Assembly (NCBI GenBank): GCA_938074745.1
Contig: CALJEJ010000012.1
Location: 1-53,752, forward strand
Reading direction: 5' to 3'
Source of the DNA: an uncultured Endomicrobiia bacterium
Lineage (GTDB): Bacteria > Elusimicrobiota > Endomicrobiia > DTEH01
Length of the DNA: 53,752 nucleotides
The notes under the pieces were generated by a model. That model searched no databases. It was not told the DNA's origin and saw nothing but the letters and a program-made list of their open reading frames with translations. The position numbers were made by a program, and so were the translations under genes. Shown piece after piece: positions 28,138 to 34,071 of the stretch; positions within the stretch are counted from its first letter, which is position 1, and each line of letters begins with the position of its first letter.

Positions 28138-28211
28138 TACAAAGTTACATATATTTCATTGAAAAATTGAACTGCTTCATTCTTAACTGAAGATTGTTAT
28201 ACGAACAGGTT

Positions 28212-28856
28212 ATGGAAAAACATCAGATTTATTTTGAACTTTTAGACGCTTTAAAAGAAAGAGGTTGTCCTATTTGTTTTCTTATCAATAGCAGGGTTCA
28301 TAAATTAATGGAAAATCTCTTGTATGAAAATGTTAACGATATAGAAATTCGTAAAAAGATAAAAGAATCTTTAGGTTTTTGTAATCTTCATTCATGGCAG
28401 TTAAAAAAATTTGCTGATGGTCTCGGTTTAAGTATAATCTATGAGGACTTATTGAATGTAATAAAAAATAAAATCAAAGAATTTCTCGGTAAGAAAGGAA
28501 AGAAAGTTGAAATTGGCTTAAACTGTCTCATATGTAGAGAAGCAAAAAATATTGAAAGAAGATTTATCTCATTATTTATAGAATATTTCAATGATATAGA
28601 GTTTAAAAATAATTTTAAATCATCATTTGGCCTTTGTTTGCCACATTTTATATCAGTTATAAAATCTTGCAAAGACAAGAATGTTATTGTAGAATTGTAT
28701 AGGATTGAAACAGAAAAGATAGAATTATTAAGGCACGAGTTAAATGAATTTCAGCGTAAACAGGATTACAGATTTTCCGCTGAAGGTTATGGCAAAGAAA
28801 AGGATTCTTGGATTAGAGCAATAGAAAAATTAACAGGTAAAGAAGGTGTATTTTAA
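28212..28856 (+). CDS. DUF6062 family protein (two-fold Cys/His motif)
   Basis: A 214-residue protein from ATG 28212; a TTG 18 bases upstream would add six residues. It is highly helical and holds two copies of a C-x2-C ... C-x2-H pattern: C19, C22, C57, H60 and C105, C108, C142, H145, with the first half reading RGCPICFLI and GFCNLHSW and the second LNCLICREA and GLCLPHF. This is the DUF6062 arrangement as I remember it. The ligand set looks suited to zinc or an iron-sulphur site; function unknown. Cytoplasmic, no signal peptide. Confidence 0.8.
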   Translation: MEKHQIYFELLDALKERGCPICFLINSRVHKLMENLLYENVNDIEIRKKIKESLGFCNLHSWQLKKFADGLGLSIIYEDLLNVIKNKIKEFLGKKGKKVEIGLNCLICREAKNIERRFISLFIEYFNDIEFKNNFKSSFGLCLPHFISVIKSCKDKNVIVELYRIETEKIELLRHELNEFQRKQDYRFSAEGYGKEKDSWIRAIEKLTGKEGVF

Positions 28857-29000: not shown

Positions 29001-29079
29001 CATTCTACTCTTGTTTTGTCTTATCCTTTATTCTTTTCTATATTGAATTTTGATACAAAAATTTTGTATATTTTTCAAA

Positions 29080-29781
29080 ATGAGCCAAGTTTTACCCTTA
29101 TCTTTAATTGAAAAAAATTTTTATAATTTAAAACAAGAAATTAATAAGATAGTAAGACACGAGGTAAGTATTGTTATAGTAACAAAGTATATAGAAGATA
29201 TAACCTTGATCTCACAGTTGGCAGATATAGGTATTACAGATATTGGTGAAAATTATGCCCAAGATATGCAAAAAAAATATGAACTTTTAATTCAAACTAC
29301 TGGAACTGCTAAATTTCGTTGGCATTTTATTGGTCATCTGCAAAAAAATAAAGTAAAAAAAGTTGTCCCTATAGCAGATTTGATACAATCAGTTGACAGT
29401 TTTGAATTAGCCCAAGAAATAGACCGTCAAGGGAAAAAAATTAATAAAATTCAAAATTGTTTAATAGAGGTAAAAGTTTCTCCTGAACCTACTAAATACG
29501 GATGTTTACCAGAAAATGTAGAAGAATTGGTAAACAAGATAAAGAGTTTATCTAACATTCGTATATGTGGTTTAATGGCGATGGCGCCTTTTTTTGAAAA
29601 TCCGGAACTCGCCAGACCATATTTCAGAGTTGTGTCCGAACTTTACAGAAATCTCTCTTCTAAATTTGCTGATGACTGTCCTCACTATCTTTCAATGGGG
29701 ATGAGCAACGATTATTTGGTAGCTATTGAAGAAGGAGCAAATATGATAAGGATTGGCAGTAAAATTTTATTAAAAGGATGA
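29080..29781 (+). CDS. yggS: YggS family PLP-binding protein (PLP homeostasis)
   Basis: A 233-residue alanine-racemase-fold single-domain protein that holds PLP and helps control B6 and amino-acid pools. K36 (VTKYIED) is the PLP lysine. IGENYAQDMQKKYE, RWHFIGHLQKNKVKKV, ALMAMAPF-like CGLMAMAPF, LSMGMSNDYLVAIEEGANMIRIG are standard. Start at ATG 29080 (MSQVLPLSL) chosen over a TTG 30 bases upstream. The yggS-proC-DUF167 order is common in bacteria. Confidence 0.95.
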   Translation: MSQVLPLSLIEKNFYNLKQEINKIVRHEVSIVIVTKYIEDITLISQLADIGITDIGENYAQDMQKKYELLIQTTGTAKFRWHFIGHLQKNKVKKVVPIADLIQSVDSFELAQEIDRQGKKINKIQNCLIEVKVSPEPTKYGCLPENVEELVNKIKSLSNIRICGLMAMAPFFENPELARPYFRVVSELYRNLSSKFADDCPHYLSMGMSNDYLVAIEEGANMIRIGSKILLKG

Positions 29782-29787
29782 TTGTTT

Positions 29788-30600
29788 ATGAAATTTGGTA
29801 TAATTGGTTGTGGTAAAATGGGTAGTGTAATTTTAGAATCGATATTATCTTTAAAATCAGTTAACCACAGAAATGTGATGATAAGTGATATTGATGAAAC
29901 CAAACTTAGACATTATGAAAAAAAGTATAAAATACTTATAAGCAAATCTAATTGTAATTTAACCAAATTTTCTGATTTAATAATTCTTGCTGTAAAACCA
30001 CAACAAATAAAAGAAGTTTTAGATGAAATAAAAAGTTTTGTCACACCACGCAAAATTGTTGTTTCAATTGCTGCAGGAGTGAAAATTTCTACTATAGAAA
30101 AAGTTTTAGGAAAAAATGTCCCTATAGTAAGAACAATGCCAAATTTACCACTTAAAGTAGGTTGTGGCATTACAGCAGTGTGTTATAATTCAACAGCCAA
30201 AAACAATTCTAGAATAAAATCTCTTACTAAACGAATCTTTTCAGTAAAAGGCGAAATTGTTGAAATTAAAGAAAACAAAATGGATTTAATAACAGCAATT
30301 TCAGGGTCAGGACCTGCGTATCTGTTTTATATTTCTGAAATATTACAGTATTGTGGGGTAAGGTTCGGATTAGCAAAAAATGTTTCTGAAAAATTGGTAA
30401 ACCAGACTTTACATGGTGCTGCAGTAATGTTGTCTGAAAGTGGTATTTCTGCAGAACAATTACGTAAGGATGTCACCTCTAAAGGTGGAACTACAGAATA
30501 TGCATTGAAAACATTTTATAAATATAATCTGAAAAAAATTTTTTATAAAGCAATTCAGGCAGCTAAGAACCGTGCTAAAGAGTTGTCTAAGATGGTTTGA
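29788..30600 (+). CDS. proC: Pyrroline-5-carboxylate reductase
   Basis: A 270-residue enzyme for the last step of proline synthesis. Rossmann motif FGIIGCGKMGSVILES at the N-terminus; VRTMPNLPLKVGCGITAV and the C-terminal SGPAYLFYISEI, QTLHGAAVMLSESGI and RKDVTSKGGTTEYAL signature. ATG 29788 gives the standard start and follows AAGGATG; an in-frame TTG two codons earlier is less likely. Full length. Confidence 0.96.
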   Translation: MKFGIIGCGKMGSVILESILSLKSVNHRNVMISDIDETKLRHYEKKYKILISKSNCNLTKFSDLIILAVKPQQIKEVLDEIKSFVTPRKIVVSIAAGVKISTIEKVLGKNVPIVRTMPNLPLKVGCGITAVCYNSTAKNNSRIKSLTKRIFSVKGEIVEIKENKMDLITAISGSGPAYLFYISEILQYCGVRFGLAKNVSEKLVNQTLHGAAVMLSESGISAEQLRKDVTSKGGTTEYALKTFYKYNLKKIFYKAIQAAKNRAKELSKMV

Positions 30601-30652
30601 GTATGTAATAAGAAATTTAGAGAAGGATTTTAATTTAAAGAGGTGATGTGGA

Positions 30653-30919
30653 ATGATAATAAAGGTAAGAGTATTACCAAACTCACCTAAAAACGAAATA
30701 GTATCAAGGATAGGTGCAGTGGTGAGAGTACAACTTACAACAAAAGATGTAGGTAGTGAAGAGACCAATAAATTGTTAAAACAGGTAATTGCAGAGTTTT
30801 TTGGTATAAAGGAAAAAAATATATACATTCGTAAAGGTCATCGAGGAAAAGAAAAAACTATAGAACTTGAAGGAAAAACTGAAGAAGAGTTTAAAGAATT
30901 GTTAGATTGTATCCCTTAA
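30653..30919 (+). CDS. DUF167 / YggU family protein
   Basis: An 88-residue small protein with the family core MIIKVRVLPNSPKNEI and a Lys-rich end IYIRKGHRGKEKTIELEG. Function unknown in general; it commonly lies near yggS and proC, as here. A clear GAGGTGATG Shine-Dalgarno precedes ATG. Confidence 0.88.
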   Translation: MIIKVRVLPNSPKNEIVSRIGAVVRVQLTTKDVGSEETNKLLKQVIAEFFGIKEKNIYIRKGHRGKEKTIELEGKTEEEFKELLDCIP

Positions 30920-30931
30920 GTTGTTAATCTT

Positions 30932-32005
30932 ATGAGGTCTTTAGAACCATTTTATTTTGAAAGACAAGATAATTGTCTATATGTACTTAACCAAAAAATT
31001 TTACCATTAAAAATTGAATATGTTAGATGTGTGACTTGTGAAGATGTTGTAAAATCTATAAAAGATATGACAGTTCGTGGTGCACCTGTAATAGGTCTTG
31101 TTGCAGGTTATGGGTTTGTGTTAGGAATTAAGGAGTTCTTTGATCATTATGCTAAAAGGTTATCAGAGGATCAGATAAATAAGAAAAAATTTTTTTTGAA
31201 ATATATTTCAGATCTTGAATCTAAATTAGTTTCTACACGACCTACAGCAGTAAACCTTTCATGGACTGTTAACAAAATAAAATCGTTTCTTATTACGAAA
31301 TTAAATTCTACCAATATATCCCGAAAGATAATTACATTAGTTTTAGCCGAAATGAAAAATATTCATCAAGAAATTATCTCACAAAATCTAAAAATTTCAA
31401 AACTTGGATACAAGTTAATTTCTAAACAGAAAGATAAATGTGTTATACTTACACATTGTAATGCTGGGACACTTGCAACTGGCGGTGTTGGAACTGCATT
31501 AGGAATTATAACAGAACTTCATCGTCATAAAAAAATTAAAACTGTGTATGTTACAGAAACACGGCCGTACATGCAAGGTGCAAGGTTGACAATGTTTGAA
31601 CTTATTTCCCAAGGTGTTCCTTGTGAACTTATCTGTGACAATATGGCAGGGTTTGTGATGAAAAATAAACAAGTAGATTGTGTAATTGTTGGTGCAGATA
31701 GAATTGCAAAAAATGGCGATACAGCAAACAAAATCGGTACATATTCCTTAAGTATACTCGCAAAATATCACAATATACCATTTTATGTTGCAGCACCAAG
31801 TTCTACTATTGACACTTCAATTTCTGATGGGGATAAGATTGTCATAGAAGAACGTTCTGAAGAAGAGCTCAAGATTGTAAATGGTAAATTAATAACATTG
31901 AAAAATGCTAAAGTGTACCATCCAGCGTTTGATATTACTCCAGCAAAACTTATTTCTGCAATTATTACAGAAAAAAAAGTGTATCGTTATCCTTATAAAT
32001 TTTAG
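30932..32005 (+). CDS. mtnA: S-methyl-5-thioribose-1-phosphate isomerase (MtnA-type)
   Basis: A 357-residue eIF-2B alpha/beta/delta-fold isomerase of the methionine salvage pathway. Conserved: TVRGAPVIGLVAGYGF, RPTAVNLSWTVNKIKS, CNAGTLATGGVGTALG with the catalytic Cys, RPYMQGARLTMFEL and IVGADRIAKNGDTANKIGTY with the catalytic Asp. No other methionine salvage gene is near; the neighbours are hydrogenase-maturation genes. An R15P isomerase role cannot be excluded from sequence alone. Confidence 0.9.
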   Translation: MRSLEPFYFERQDNCLYVLNQKILPLKIEYVRCVTCEDVVKSIKDMTVRGAPVIGLVAGYGFVLGIKEFFDHYAKRLSEDQINKKKFFLKYISDLESKLVSTRPTAVNLSWTVNKIKSFLITKLNSTNISRKIITLVLAEMKNIHQEIISQNLKISKLGYKLISKQKDKCVILTHCNAGTLATGGVGTALGIITELHRHKKIKTVYVTETRPYMQGARLTMFELISQGVPCELICDNMAGFVMKNKQVDCVIVGADRIAKNGDTANKIGTYSLSILAKYHNIPFYVAAPSSTIDTSISDGDKIVIEERSEEELKIVNGKLITLKNAKVYHPAFDITPAKLISAIITEKKVYRYPYKF

Positions 32006-32012
32006 TTTTTAT

Positions 32013-32546
32013 ATGGACAATATTAATGAATTTTCTTTATTATTAAAAAACATTGTTGTTCCTGAAAAAACTTTATTTATAGGTATCGGTAATATTTTAA
32101 GGACGGACGATGGTGTGGGTAGTATAATTATAAGTTCGTTGAAAAACAAATATGGAGATTGTTTACCTAATAAAGTAAAACTTCTTGATGCTGGAATAAA
32201 CATAGAAAATTTGTTATCTCAAATCATAAATTTTGGACCTAAAACTGTCGTATTTTTTGATGCAATAAGACCAAATAACAAGTTTTTAGATAAAGAAATT
32301 GTTGTTTTACCAAAAGAAAAATTGCAAAATACTACTTTCAGCACTCATAATATCTCATTGGCTACAACTATAGAATATTTAAATTTTCAGATAAATGAAA
32401 AATTTAACTTTCAACCAGAATTTTATGTTGTCGGGATAAAAGTTTTTAACATAAATTTTGCACAAAAAATATCTGAAAAAGTTTTATCTTATATAAAAGC
32501 AATATTGTCAGAAATTGAAGCATGGGTAAATAATATACCTTATTAA
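32013..32546 (+). CDS. Hydrogenase maturation protease (HycI/HyaD family)
   Basis: A 177-residue protease that removes the C-terminal tail of a [NiFe] hydrogenase large subunit after metal insertion. GIGNILRTDDGVG near residues 24-36 holds the first nickel-sensing Asp; LDAGINIENLL and FDAIRPNN are followed by STHNISLATTIEYL with the His ligand. Start at ATG 32013, since the in-frame TTG upstream lies inside mtnA. Eight bases after mtnA. The target hydrogenase is not in the window. Confidence 0.85.
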   Translation: MDNINEFSLLLKNIVVPEKTLFIGIGNILRTDDGVGSIIISSLKNKYGDCLPNKVKLLDAGINIENLLSQIINFGPKTVVFFDAIRPNNKFLDKEIVVLPKEKLQNTTFSTHNISLATTIEYLNFQINEKFNFQPEFYVVGIKVFNINFAQKISEKVLSYIKAILSEIEAWVNNIPY

Positions 32547-32563
32547 AAACAGACACACCTTTT

Positions 32564-32908
32564 ATGCACGAACTTAGTTTAGCACAAAATTTGATGGCAA
32601 GTATACTAAATATTTTAAAACAATATGATTCTGTAACCAAAGTTATACGAATTAAAATATGTATTGGCGAAGCTTCTGGTGTGGATGTAAACTTTTTAGA
32701 CCATTCGTTAAAAGAGCATGTGTTAAAAAATACTGTATGTGAAAATGCTCAAATAGAATATGAGAAACTTCCTGTAAAAATAAAATGTAAATCTTGTGGT
32801 AAAATTTATTCTGAAATAACAGCGAACATTTGTACAGTTTGTGGAGAGGATGGATTTGAAGTTATATCTGGTAACGAATTTTATGTAAAAGAAATTGAGC
32901 TAGAGTAA
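32564..32908 (+). CDS. hypA: Hydrogenase nickel-incorporation protein HypA
   Basis: A 114-residue nickel chaperone. M1-H2-E3 gives the N-terminal nickel site (MHELSLAQNLM). The zinc site is formed by C75 and C78 (CKSC) and C90 and C93 (CTVC). It delivers nickel to [NiFe] hydrogenase with HypB, which is not in this window. Five bases before the next gene. Confidence 0.93.
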   Translation: MHELSLAQNLMASILNILKQYDSVTKVIRIKICIGEASGVDVNFLDHSLKEHVLKNTVCENAQIEYEKLPVKIKCKSCGKIYSEITANICTVCGEDGFEVISGNEFYVKEIELE

Positions 32909-32913
32909 CAAAA

Positions 32914-34071
32914 ATGGTAAATACTATACAAATAGATGAAATATTTAAAAAACCAATTTTAGGTGTTGGAGCAGAACTAAAAAACACTTTTGCTGCTGGT
33001 GTAAATAATAATGTGTTTATAAAAGAGCACGATTATATTGATAATAATTTAAAAATGTTGTCATTATTTGACAATACAGTGAAATATTTTGAAAAAGAAT
33101 TAAGTTTCTTACCTGAAATAATTGTCCACGATTTACATCCCGAGTATCTTTCAACAAAGTATGTACATGAATTGGTTCACAAATATAAAAAACTAAATAT
33201 TTATTCTGTCCAACACCATTTTGCCCATATGGTAAGTTGTATGACGGATAACAATATTACGACAACCTCTATAGGAGTAATTTTTGATGGTACAGGGTTT
33301 GGGTTAGATGGAACTATCTGGGGTAGCGAATTTTTTGTTGCTGACAGAAAAAAATTTTGTCGTGTAGGATATTTTGACTATATAAATTTAGTTAGTGGAG
33401 ATTTGGGGATTAAAGAACCCTACAGAACTACTTTAGGATTCTTATATCAACATTCTTTTGAAAATATTGAAAAATTACCTTTTTGGAAAAAATTTGTCAT
33501 TCAATATAAAAAAGATTATGTTCTGCGTGCTAAAGGAATAAAATTCCTTATAGATAACAATATTAATATTGTAAAAAGTTGTGGTATGGGACGAATTTTT
33601 GACATTGTAGCAGTATTATGTGGTCTTGGTTTGGTGAACAGTTATGAAGGTGCTCTACCTATTGAAACAGAACAACGAGTACCTAAAAATCCAGATGGAA
33701 CTATAGATACAAAGTTATTTTATAACTATAGGATAATTTCTCACGATAACCAATATATAGTTGATACCACAACATTGTTGAAATGTATTGTTGAAGATTT
33801 GTTAAAGAACGTACCATTGGAAGAAATTTTAACAAAATTTTATTCTACAATAGTGTTAACTACTTACAAAATTGTTTTAGAATTACATAAAAAGTTTGAT
33901 ATTGACAAAGTCCTTTTTTCTGGAGGTGTGTTTCAAAACAAAGTGCTAACAAATACATTAACTAAACTTCTTACCGAAGCAAAATTAAAAGTTTATACCC
34001 ACAAAAATATACCATGTAACGATGCTGGAATTTCTATCGGCCAAATTGTAGCTGTTAATAATTTACAATAA
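32914..34071 (+). CDS. Stand-alone HypF carbamoyltransferase (Kae1-like) domain
   Basis: A 385-residue protein covering only the C-terminal carbamoyltransferase domain of HypF, normally about 750 residues. GVGAELKNTFAA opens it at once. HDLHPEYLSTKY, QHHFAHMVSC (metal ligands H101, H105), IGVIFDGTGFGLDGTIWGSE (D125), KSCGMGRIFDIVAVL, EGALPIETE, LFSGGVFQN and CNDAGISIGQ follow HypF order. The acylphosphatase, zinc-finger and YrdC-like domains are absent, and hypA ends only 5 bases upstream, so no N-terminal remnant is hidden here. Whether it makes carbamoyl-adenylate with an external partner is open. Confidence 0.85.
   Translation: MVNTIQIDEIFKKPILGVGAELKNTFAAGVNNNVFIKEHDYIDNNLKMLSLFDNTVKYFEKELSFLPEIIVHDLHPEYLSTKYVHELVHKYKKLNIYSVQHHFAHMVSCMTDNNITTTSIGVIFDGTGFGLDGTIWGSEFFVADRKKFCRVGYFDYINLVSGDLGIKEPYRTTLGFLYQHSFENIEKLPFWKKFVIQYKKDYVLRAKGIKFLIDNNINIVKSCGMGRIFDIVAVLCGLGLVNSYEGALPIETEQRVPKNPDGTIDTKLFYNYRIISHDNQYIVDTTTLLKCIVEDLLKNVPLEEILTKFYSTIVLTTYKIVLELHKKFDIDKVLFSGGVFQNKVLTNTLTKLLTEAKLKVYTHKNIPCNDAGISIGQIVAVNNLQ

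Follow-up and report, generated by a model that had tools for sequence, protein, structure and literature searches.

The gene at positions 32914-34071 of the window (the whole 53,752-nucleotide stretch of DNA that was analysed) encodes a protein that belongs to HypF by descent and contains the Kae1-like domain only, and this protein, referred to here as HypF-C, probably works as a HypE carbamoyltransferase that receives its carbamoyl-AMP in trans. HypF, which begins the synthesis of the cyanide ligands of [NiFe] hydrogenase, has been described as having four domains and a tunnel inside that shields labile intermediates. As we read the window genome (G000, a MAG of 85 contigs with 93.9% completeness), HypF has lost its acylphosphatase, zinc-finger and YrdC domains, and the transferase half is the only HypF found; carbamoyl-AMP would no longer be made and channelled within HypF, another protein would supply it, and HypF-C would pass the carbamoyl group from carbamoyl-AMP to HypE. 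The likeliest supplier, which we name tentatively, would be the Sua5 encoded behind hypC-hypD-hypE. The features of the locus are as follows.

29050-32005, + strand: upstream block of YggS-like, ProC-like, DUF167-like and mtnA genes, in the order that also precedes full-length hypF in genome G004
32013-32546, + strand: hydrogenase maturation protease (HycI/HupD superfamily; TIGR00072, 1.1e-24, above cut-off; start chosen by reading)
32564-32908, + strand: hypA, nickel metallochaperone (PF01155, 8e-25)
32906-32916, + strand: junction of the hypA stop and the hypF-C start, with 5 bases between them and about 400 codons missing compared with HypF of the same family
32914-34071, + strand: Kae1-like-only HypF (carbamoyltransferase half), 385 aa, ATG start, open frame (Pfam, TIGR00143, AlphaFold)
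33214-33228, + strand: HHxxH (residues 101-105), where the metal of the Kae1-like domain is expected to bind (alignment)
33919-33939, + strand: SGGVFQN nucleotide-binding loop, residues 336-342 (alignment)
34021-34023, + strand: Asp370, C-terminal active-site Asp, invariant in 19 sequences

The 385-aa open reading frame was matched in Pfam by PF17788 (HypF_C; 1.3e-23, residues 12-112) and PF22521 (HypF_C_2; 3.8e-61, residues 121-377), with no Pfam match to the acylphosphatase, zinc-finger or YrdC families, nor to Carbam_trans_N or Carbam_trans_C of the TobZ/NodU type. The hypF model TIGR00143 aligned over its positions 389-740 of 741 only (4.2e-67), with a score of 226.9 bits that lies under the cut-off of 466.1 for full-length HypF. 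Identity as TsaD/Kae1 was rejected (TIGR03723, 29.5 bits against a cut-off of 296.1). When 19 HypF Kae1 domains were aligned, the expected active-site columns (HHxxH at 101-105, D125, SGGxFxN at 336-342 and D370) were invariant or nearly so, with H101, H102 and H105 of the first motif and G337, G338, F340 and N342 of the loop invariant throughout; the metal site of Kae1 has been described as HxxH...D (PMC9654439). The AlphaFold model of HypF-C had a mean pLDDT of 91.8, and its best PDB matches were the HypF structures 3vth/3vti (TM 0.86), with TsaD/Kae1 more distant, so that sequence and structure both place the window protein with HypF and not with TsaD/Kae1. The original prediction that the Kae1-like domain of HypF is encoded alone, with its motifs all kept and in tight linkage to hypA and a hydrogenase protease, is borne out by these profile and alignment data and by the gene order protease, hypA, hypF-C, in which hypA lies 5 bases away.

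Only 5 bases separate the end of hypA (32908) from the ATG of hypF-C (32914), which leaves no room for a coding remnant, and this spacing rules out an upstream coding half or a frameshift. In genomes of the same family a full-length HypF occupies the same place: G004 carries YggS-like, ProC-like, DUF167-like and mtnA genes, hycI and hypA, with a full-length HypF of 789 aa beginning 8 bases further on, and G001 carries hycI and hypA and then a full-length HypF. The HypF of G003 meets a contig end, yet its frame reaches into the YrdC domain and it is apparently full-length. Proteins of the upstream block were 50-69% identical to those of G004 (TIGR00512 named mtnA; the names YggS-like, ProC-like and DUF167-like come from reading and from homology with the G004 block). 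The window protein and the HypFs of G001, G003 and G004 formed one group in the tree with 100% bootstrap support, HypF-C being 45-48% identical to the HypFs of G001 and G004, compared with 59-60% among the relatives. Because same-family genomes have this gene order with a full-length HypF, the N-terminal half (about 400 residues) was deleted in place from a full-length HypF. Positions 28194-28856 of the window, upstream of the hyp genes and separated from them by a few others, encode a DUF6062 protein with CxxC motifs.

Within G000, matches to TIGR00143 were confined to the HypF-C frame, TsaD, Sua5, a TobZ-type protein and a stand-alone acylphosphatase. The N-terminal half (400 aa) of a HypF from the same family had the acylphosphatase as its sole match; these profile and N-terminal-half searches therefore found no second HypF, no full-length HypF and no separate HypF half in this genome, although at 93.9% completeness a missing gene is possible for G000 taken alone. 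Stand-alone acylphosphatases are common in the class and occur also in several genomes with a full-length HypF, which led us to reject the one in G000 as a specific partner of HypF-C. The original prediction had called for a separate carbamoyl-adenylate source, a view open to refutation by a full-length HypF elsewhere or by an upstream coding half, and had proposed a search for a detached acylphosphatase-YrdC half and for a NiFe hydrogenase. The hydrogenase is present, and of the HypF parts only the stand-alone acylphosphatase was found, which agrees with that call; since the half that makes the activated substrate is lost, another enzyme probably must supply carbamoyl-AMP.

The partners expected for such a pathway are encoded on other contigs of G000. 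The genes hypC-hypD-hypE lie on contig C26, and HypE ends in PRIC, the C-terminal Cys of HypE being the acceptor of the carbamoyl group (PMC4506123). Contig C52 encodes a Complex-1/group-4-like [NiFe] hydrogenase whose large subunit keeps both CxxC motifs (ERICGIC, DPCYCC). A carbamoyl-phosphate synthase is also encoded, and as its large subunit scored above cut-off in 11 of 11 genomes tested, a lost supply of carbamoyl phosphate was rejected as the cause of the truncation. HypD and HypE show scarcely any extra divergence in the G000 lineage compared with relatives, and HypA has diverged faster. In another member of the family, G002 (95% complete), a group-4-like large subunit with both CxxC motifs (L179) was observed, with no match to HypF or HypD.

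Among 341 genomes surveyed from the phylum (Elusimicrobiota), 113 have HypF, and Kae1-only HypFs away from contig ends occur in at least G000, G011, G024 and G038, which represent four families. All four of these genomes of the class are 94-100% complete, with G024 at 100%; profile search found no separate HypF half in any of them, and direct search with the HypF N-terminal half returned acylphosphatases only. The HypFs of G011, G024 and G038 resemble the window protein in domain content, in the presence of hypD in the genome and in being accompanied by one PF01300 protein each; a hydrogenase protease gene lies near HypF in all three, and hypA adjoins it in G011 and G038. They differ from it as independent truncations, with other breakpoints and tree positions. 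With HypF1 of Cupriavidus necator as a fifth case, the five Kae1-only forms need five changes on the tree, of which well-supported branches force at least four; a single clade of such forms was rejected (AU test, p-AU 1.2e-5), which excludes one ancient Kae1-only subfamily; as the letter make-up of some tree rows was uneven, the exact count of changes is less secure than the conclusion that they do not go back to a single origin. The shortening of HypF happened several times independently. In G000, G011 and HypF1 the reduced form begins immediately ahead of the Kae1 domain, and the forms of G024 and G038 have differing leaders; the leader of G038 (MKTYKININGR..., L046:8594-8660) is like the first strand of an acylphosphatase and, judged by this resemblance, may be what is left of the deleted half. 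Of the 80 best GTDB relatives, which were also inspected, 74 had readable frames and six loci had none, and among the 74 no Kae1-only form was found except for frames meeting a contig end, which indicates that the reduced form is rare.

Synthesis of t6A requires Sua5 or TsaC, and the four Kae1-only genomes have exactly one PF01300 (YrdC) protein apiece. In G000 this protein is a Sua5 of 343 aa (L013:10682-11713, contig C26), encoded after hypE and pcm, with the YrdC and the SUA5 C-terminal domains both matched (PF01300, PF03481). It reads GTSAN, with Thr for the signature Pro, has Arg at position 62 and is without the PGM..HY gate motif; at these two positions the Sua5 proteins of all four same-family genomes, G001-G004, have the signature Pro (before SAN) and Asp, and they carry the PGM..HY motif. 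Thr at the signature position is the residue of TsaC, HypF and TobZ, and the gate region of the G000 Sua5 was modelled as disordered (pLDDT about 38). This Sua5 was 55-59% identical to those of relatives, compared with 68% among the relatives, so that HypF-C and Sua5 are both extra diverged in the G000 lineage, unlike HypD and HypE; as HypA is extra diverged too, the argument from their shared divergence is limited. The linkage hypE-pcm-sua5 was found in four genomes of the family (L013:7491-11713, L082, L083 and L084), with hypD adjoining where the contig allows. Because sua5 and hypE are linked also in G001, G003 and G004, where HypF is full-length or apparently so, the linkage is older than the truncation and did not arise as compensation, and the case for sua5-hypCDE linkage as a specific compensation is weakened accordingly. 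A counterexample is G011, where a Kae1-only HypF is found with an ordinary, canonical Sua5, and G024 and G038 have TsaC, which carries Thr regardless.

The link between the Sua5 changes and the truncation of HypF in G000 is correlative. It is possible, at rather less than even likelihood, that Sua5 is the carbamoyl-AMP supplier and has adapted to the task. The fuller scheme, in which Sua5 or TsaC would take over both duties, making TC-AMP for TsaD and carbamoyl-AMP for HypF-C, with the G000 Sua5 adapted through an open gate and the Thr, is somewhat more doubtful. The HypF tunnel shielding carbamate has been stressed in reviews (PMC12134894), and this counts against any supply in trans.

A different supplier can be named in the same genome, a TobZ/NodU-type O-carbamoyltransferase on contig C76 (564 aa, Carbam_trans_N and Carbam_trans_C, L016:2042-3736), from whose YrdC-like domain carbamoyl-AMP might leak or dock, as enzymes of this type, which have no acylphosphatase domain, use carbamoyl phosphate and ATP to form carbamoyl-AMP (PMC9633730, PMC9654439). 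Its gene lies on another contig, among glycosyltransferase-like genes and without hyp linkage, and possible relatives (weak matches) occur in G021 and G002, that is in full-length-HypF and HypF-less genomes, so that these matches gave no correlation with truncation; we consider this source rather unlikely. That the missing half is a separate gene in an unassembled part of the genome, HypF being split, is a less probable explanation still: incomplete assembly of G000 (93.9%, 85 contigs) would allow it, but none of the four Kae1-only genomes yielded a separate half in the profile search, each has a single PF01300 protein, the N-terminal search gave only acylphosphatases, and a partner gene would usually adjoin, where beside hypF-C there is no room.

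Equally improbable is that HypF-C is a decaying or non-functional remnant in a cell whose hydrogenase either lacks activity or matures with no cyanide ligands. The long branch of HypF-C relative to its full-length sisters would fit decay, as would the large subunit kept in G002 beside no HypF or HypD match, but the frame is open, the active-site columns are invariant, the fold is confident, the tight order with hypA is retained, HypC, HypD and HypE with its PRIC are conserved, and the reduced form has been kept intact in independent lineages. The alternative in the original prediction, a carbamoyltransferase for a new substrate apart from hydrogenase, draws on the accelerated divergence and on fold relatives such as TobZ and GdmN that act on small molecules, but is very improbable given the gene order with hypA and the protease, the presence of hypC, hypD, the acceptor HypE and a NiFe hydrogenase, and the grouping with HypF (100%) and not with the TobZ or TsaD families. 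Taken together, the kept residues, the pathway partners, the loss in place and the placement within the HypF tree make a working HypE carbamoyltransferase the most likely reading of HypF-C; its enzymatic activity, the supply in trans and the role of Sua5 as supplier are what we infer from them.

If this reading is true, the HypF tunnel is dispensable and carbamoyl-AMP can pass from one protein to another, as TC-AMP does when t6A is made, hydrogenase maturation would be tied to tRNA modification, and the Kae1-only genomes would offer naturally minimal systems in which to test the chemistry and from which to build simpler sets of hydrogenase maturation genes. The arrangement proposed is like that of TsaD/Kae1 with Sua5/TsaC, where a separate YrdC-type protein makes the acyl-AMP for a Kae1-type protein, but the t6A system differs in its substrate, threonylcarbamoyl-AMP, and in its acceptor, tRNA. 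The full-length HypFs of G001 and G004 share the Kae1-like domain, active-site residues and neighbourhood with the window protein, and the solved HypF (3vth/3vti) shares the domain and the residues; all of these differ in having acylphosphatase, zinc-finger and YrdC domains on a single polypeptide. Atypical Sua5 proteins of Archaeoglobi resemble that of G000, as their description in PMC10321239 has it, in loss of the PGM gate motif and a basic residue at position 62, and that of A. profundus in its Thr signature; they are archaeal, and the description of their gate loss states no link to HypF (PMC10321239), which counts against tying the gate loss in G000 to the truncation.

The closest known parallel is HypF1 of C. 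necator H16 (pHG1, 394 aa, WP_011153939.1), which like the window protein has the Kae1-like domain only and is encoded among hyp genes, in the hypABFCDEX operon. C. necator differs from G000 in having also a hypF3 gene (PMC3702609) and a full-length HypF2, so that HypF1 could receive adenylate from another HypF, and in the tree HypF1 falls with HypF2 and not with the window protein, which speaks against common descent of the two truncated forms. In an E. coli hypF mutant HypF1 showed no activity, which counts against the reading proposed here, although it was not established that HypF1 was made there (PMC5350229). It has been described as having one of the three HypF domains and as likely to need carbamoyl adenylate, so that a truncated HypF and the proposal of an external need for carbamoyl-AMP are already published (PMC9100943). 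What appears to be new here is a truncated form as the only HypF found in a genome, its repeated origin, and the coinciding changes in the sole Sua5.
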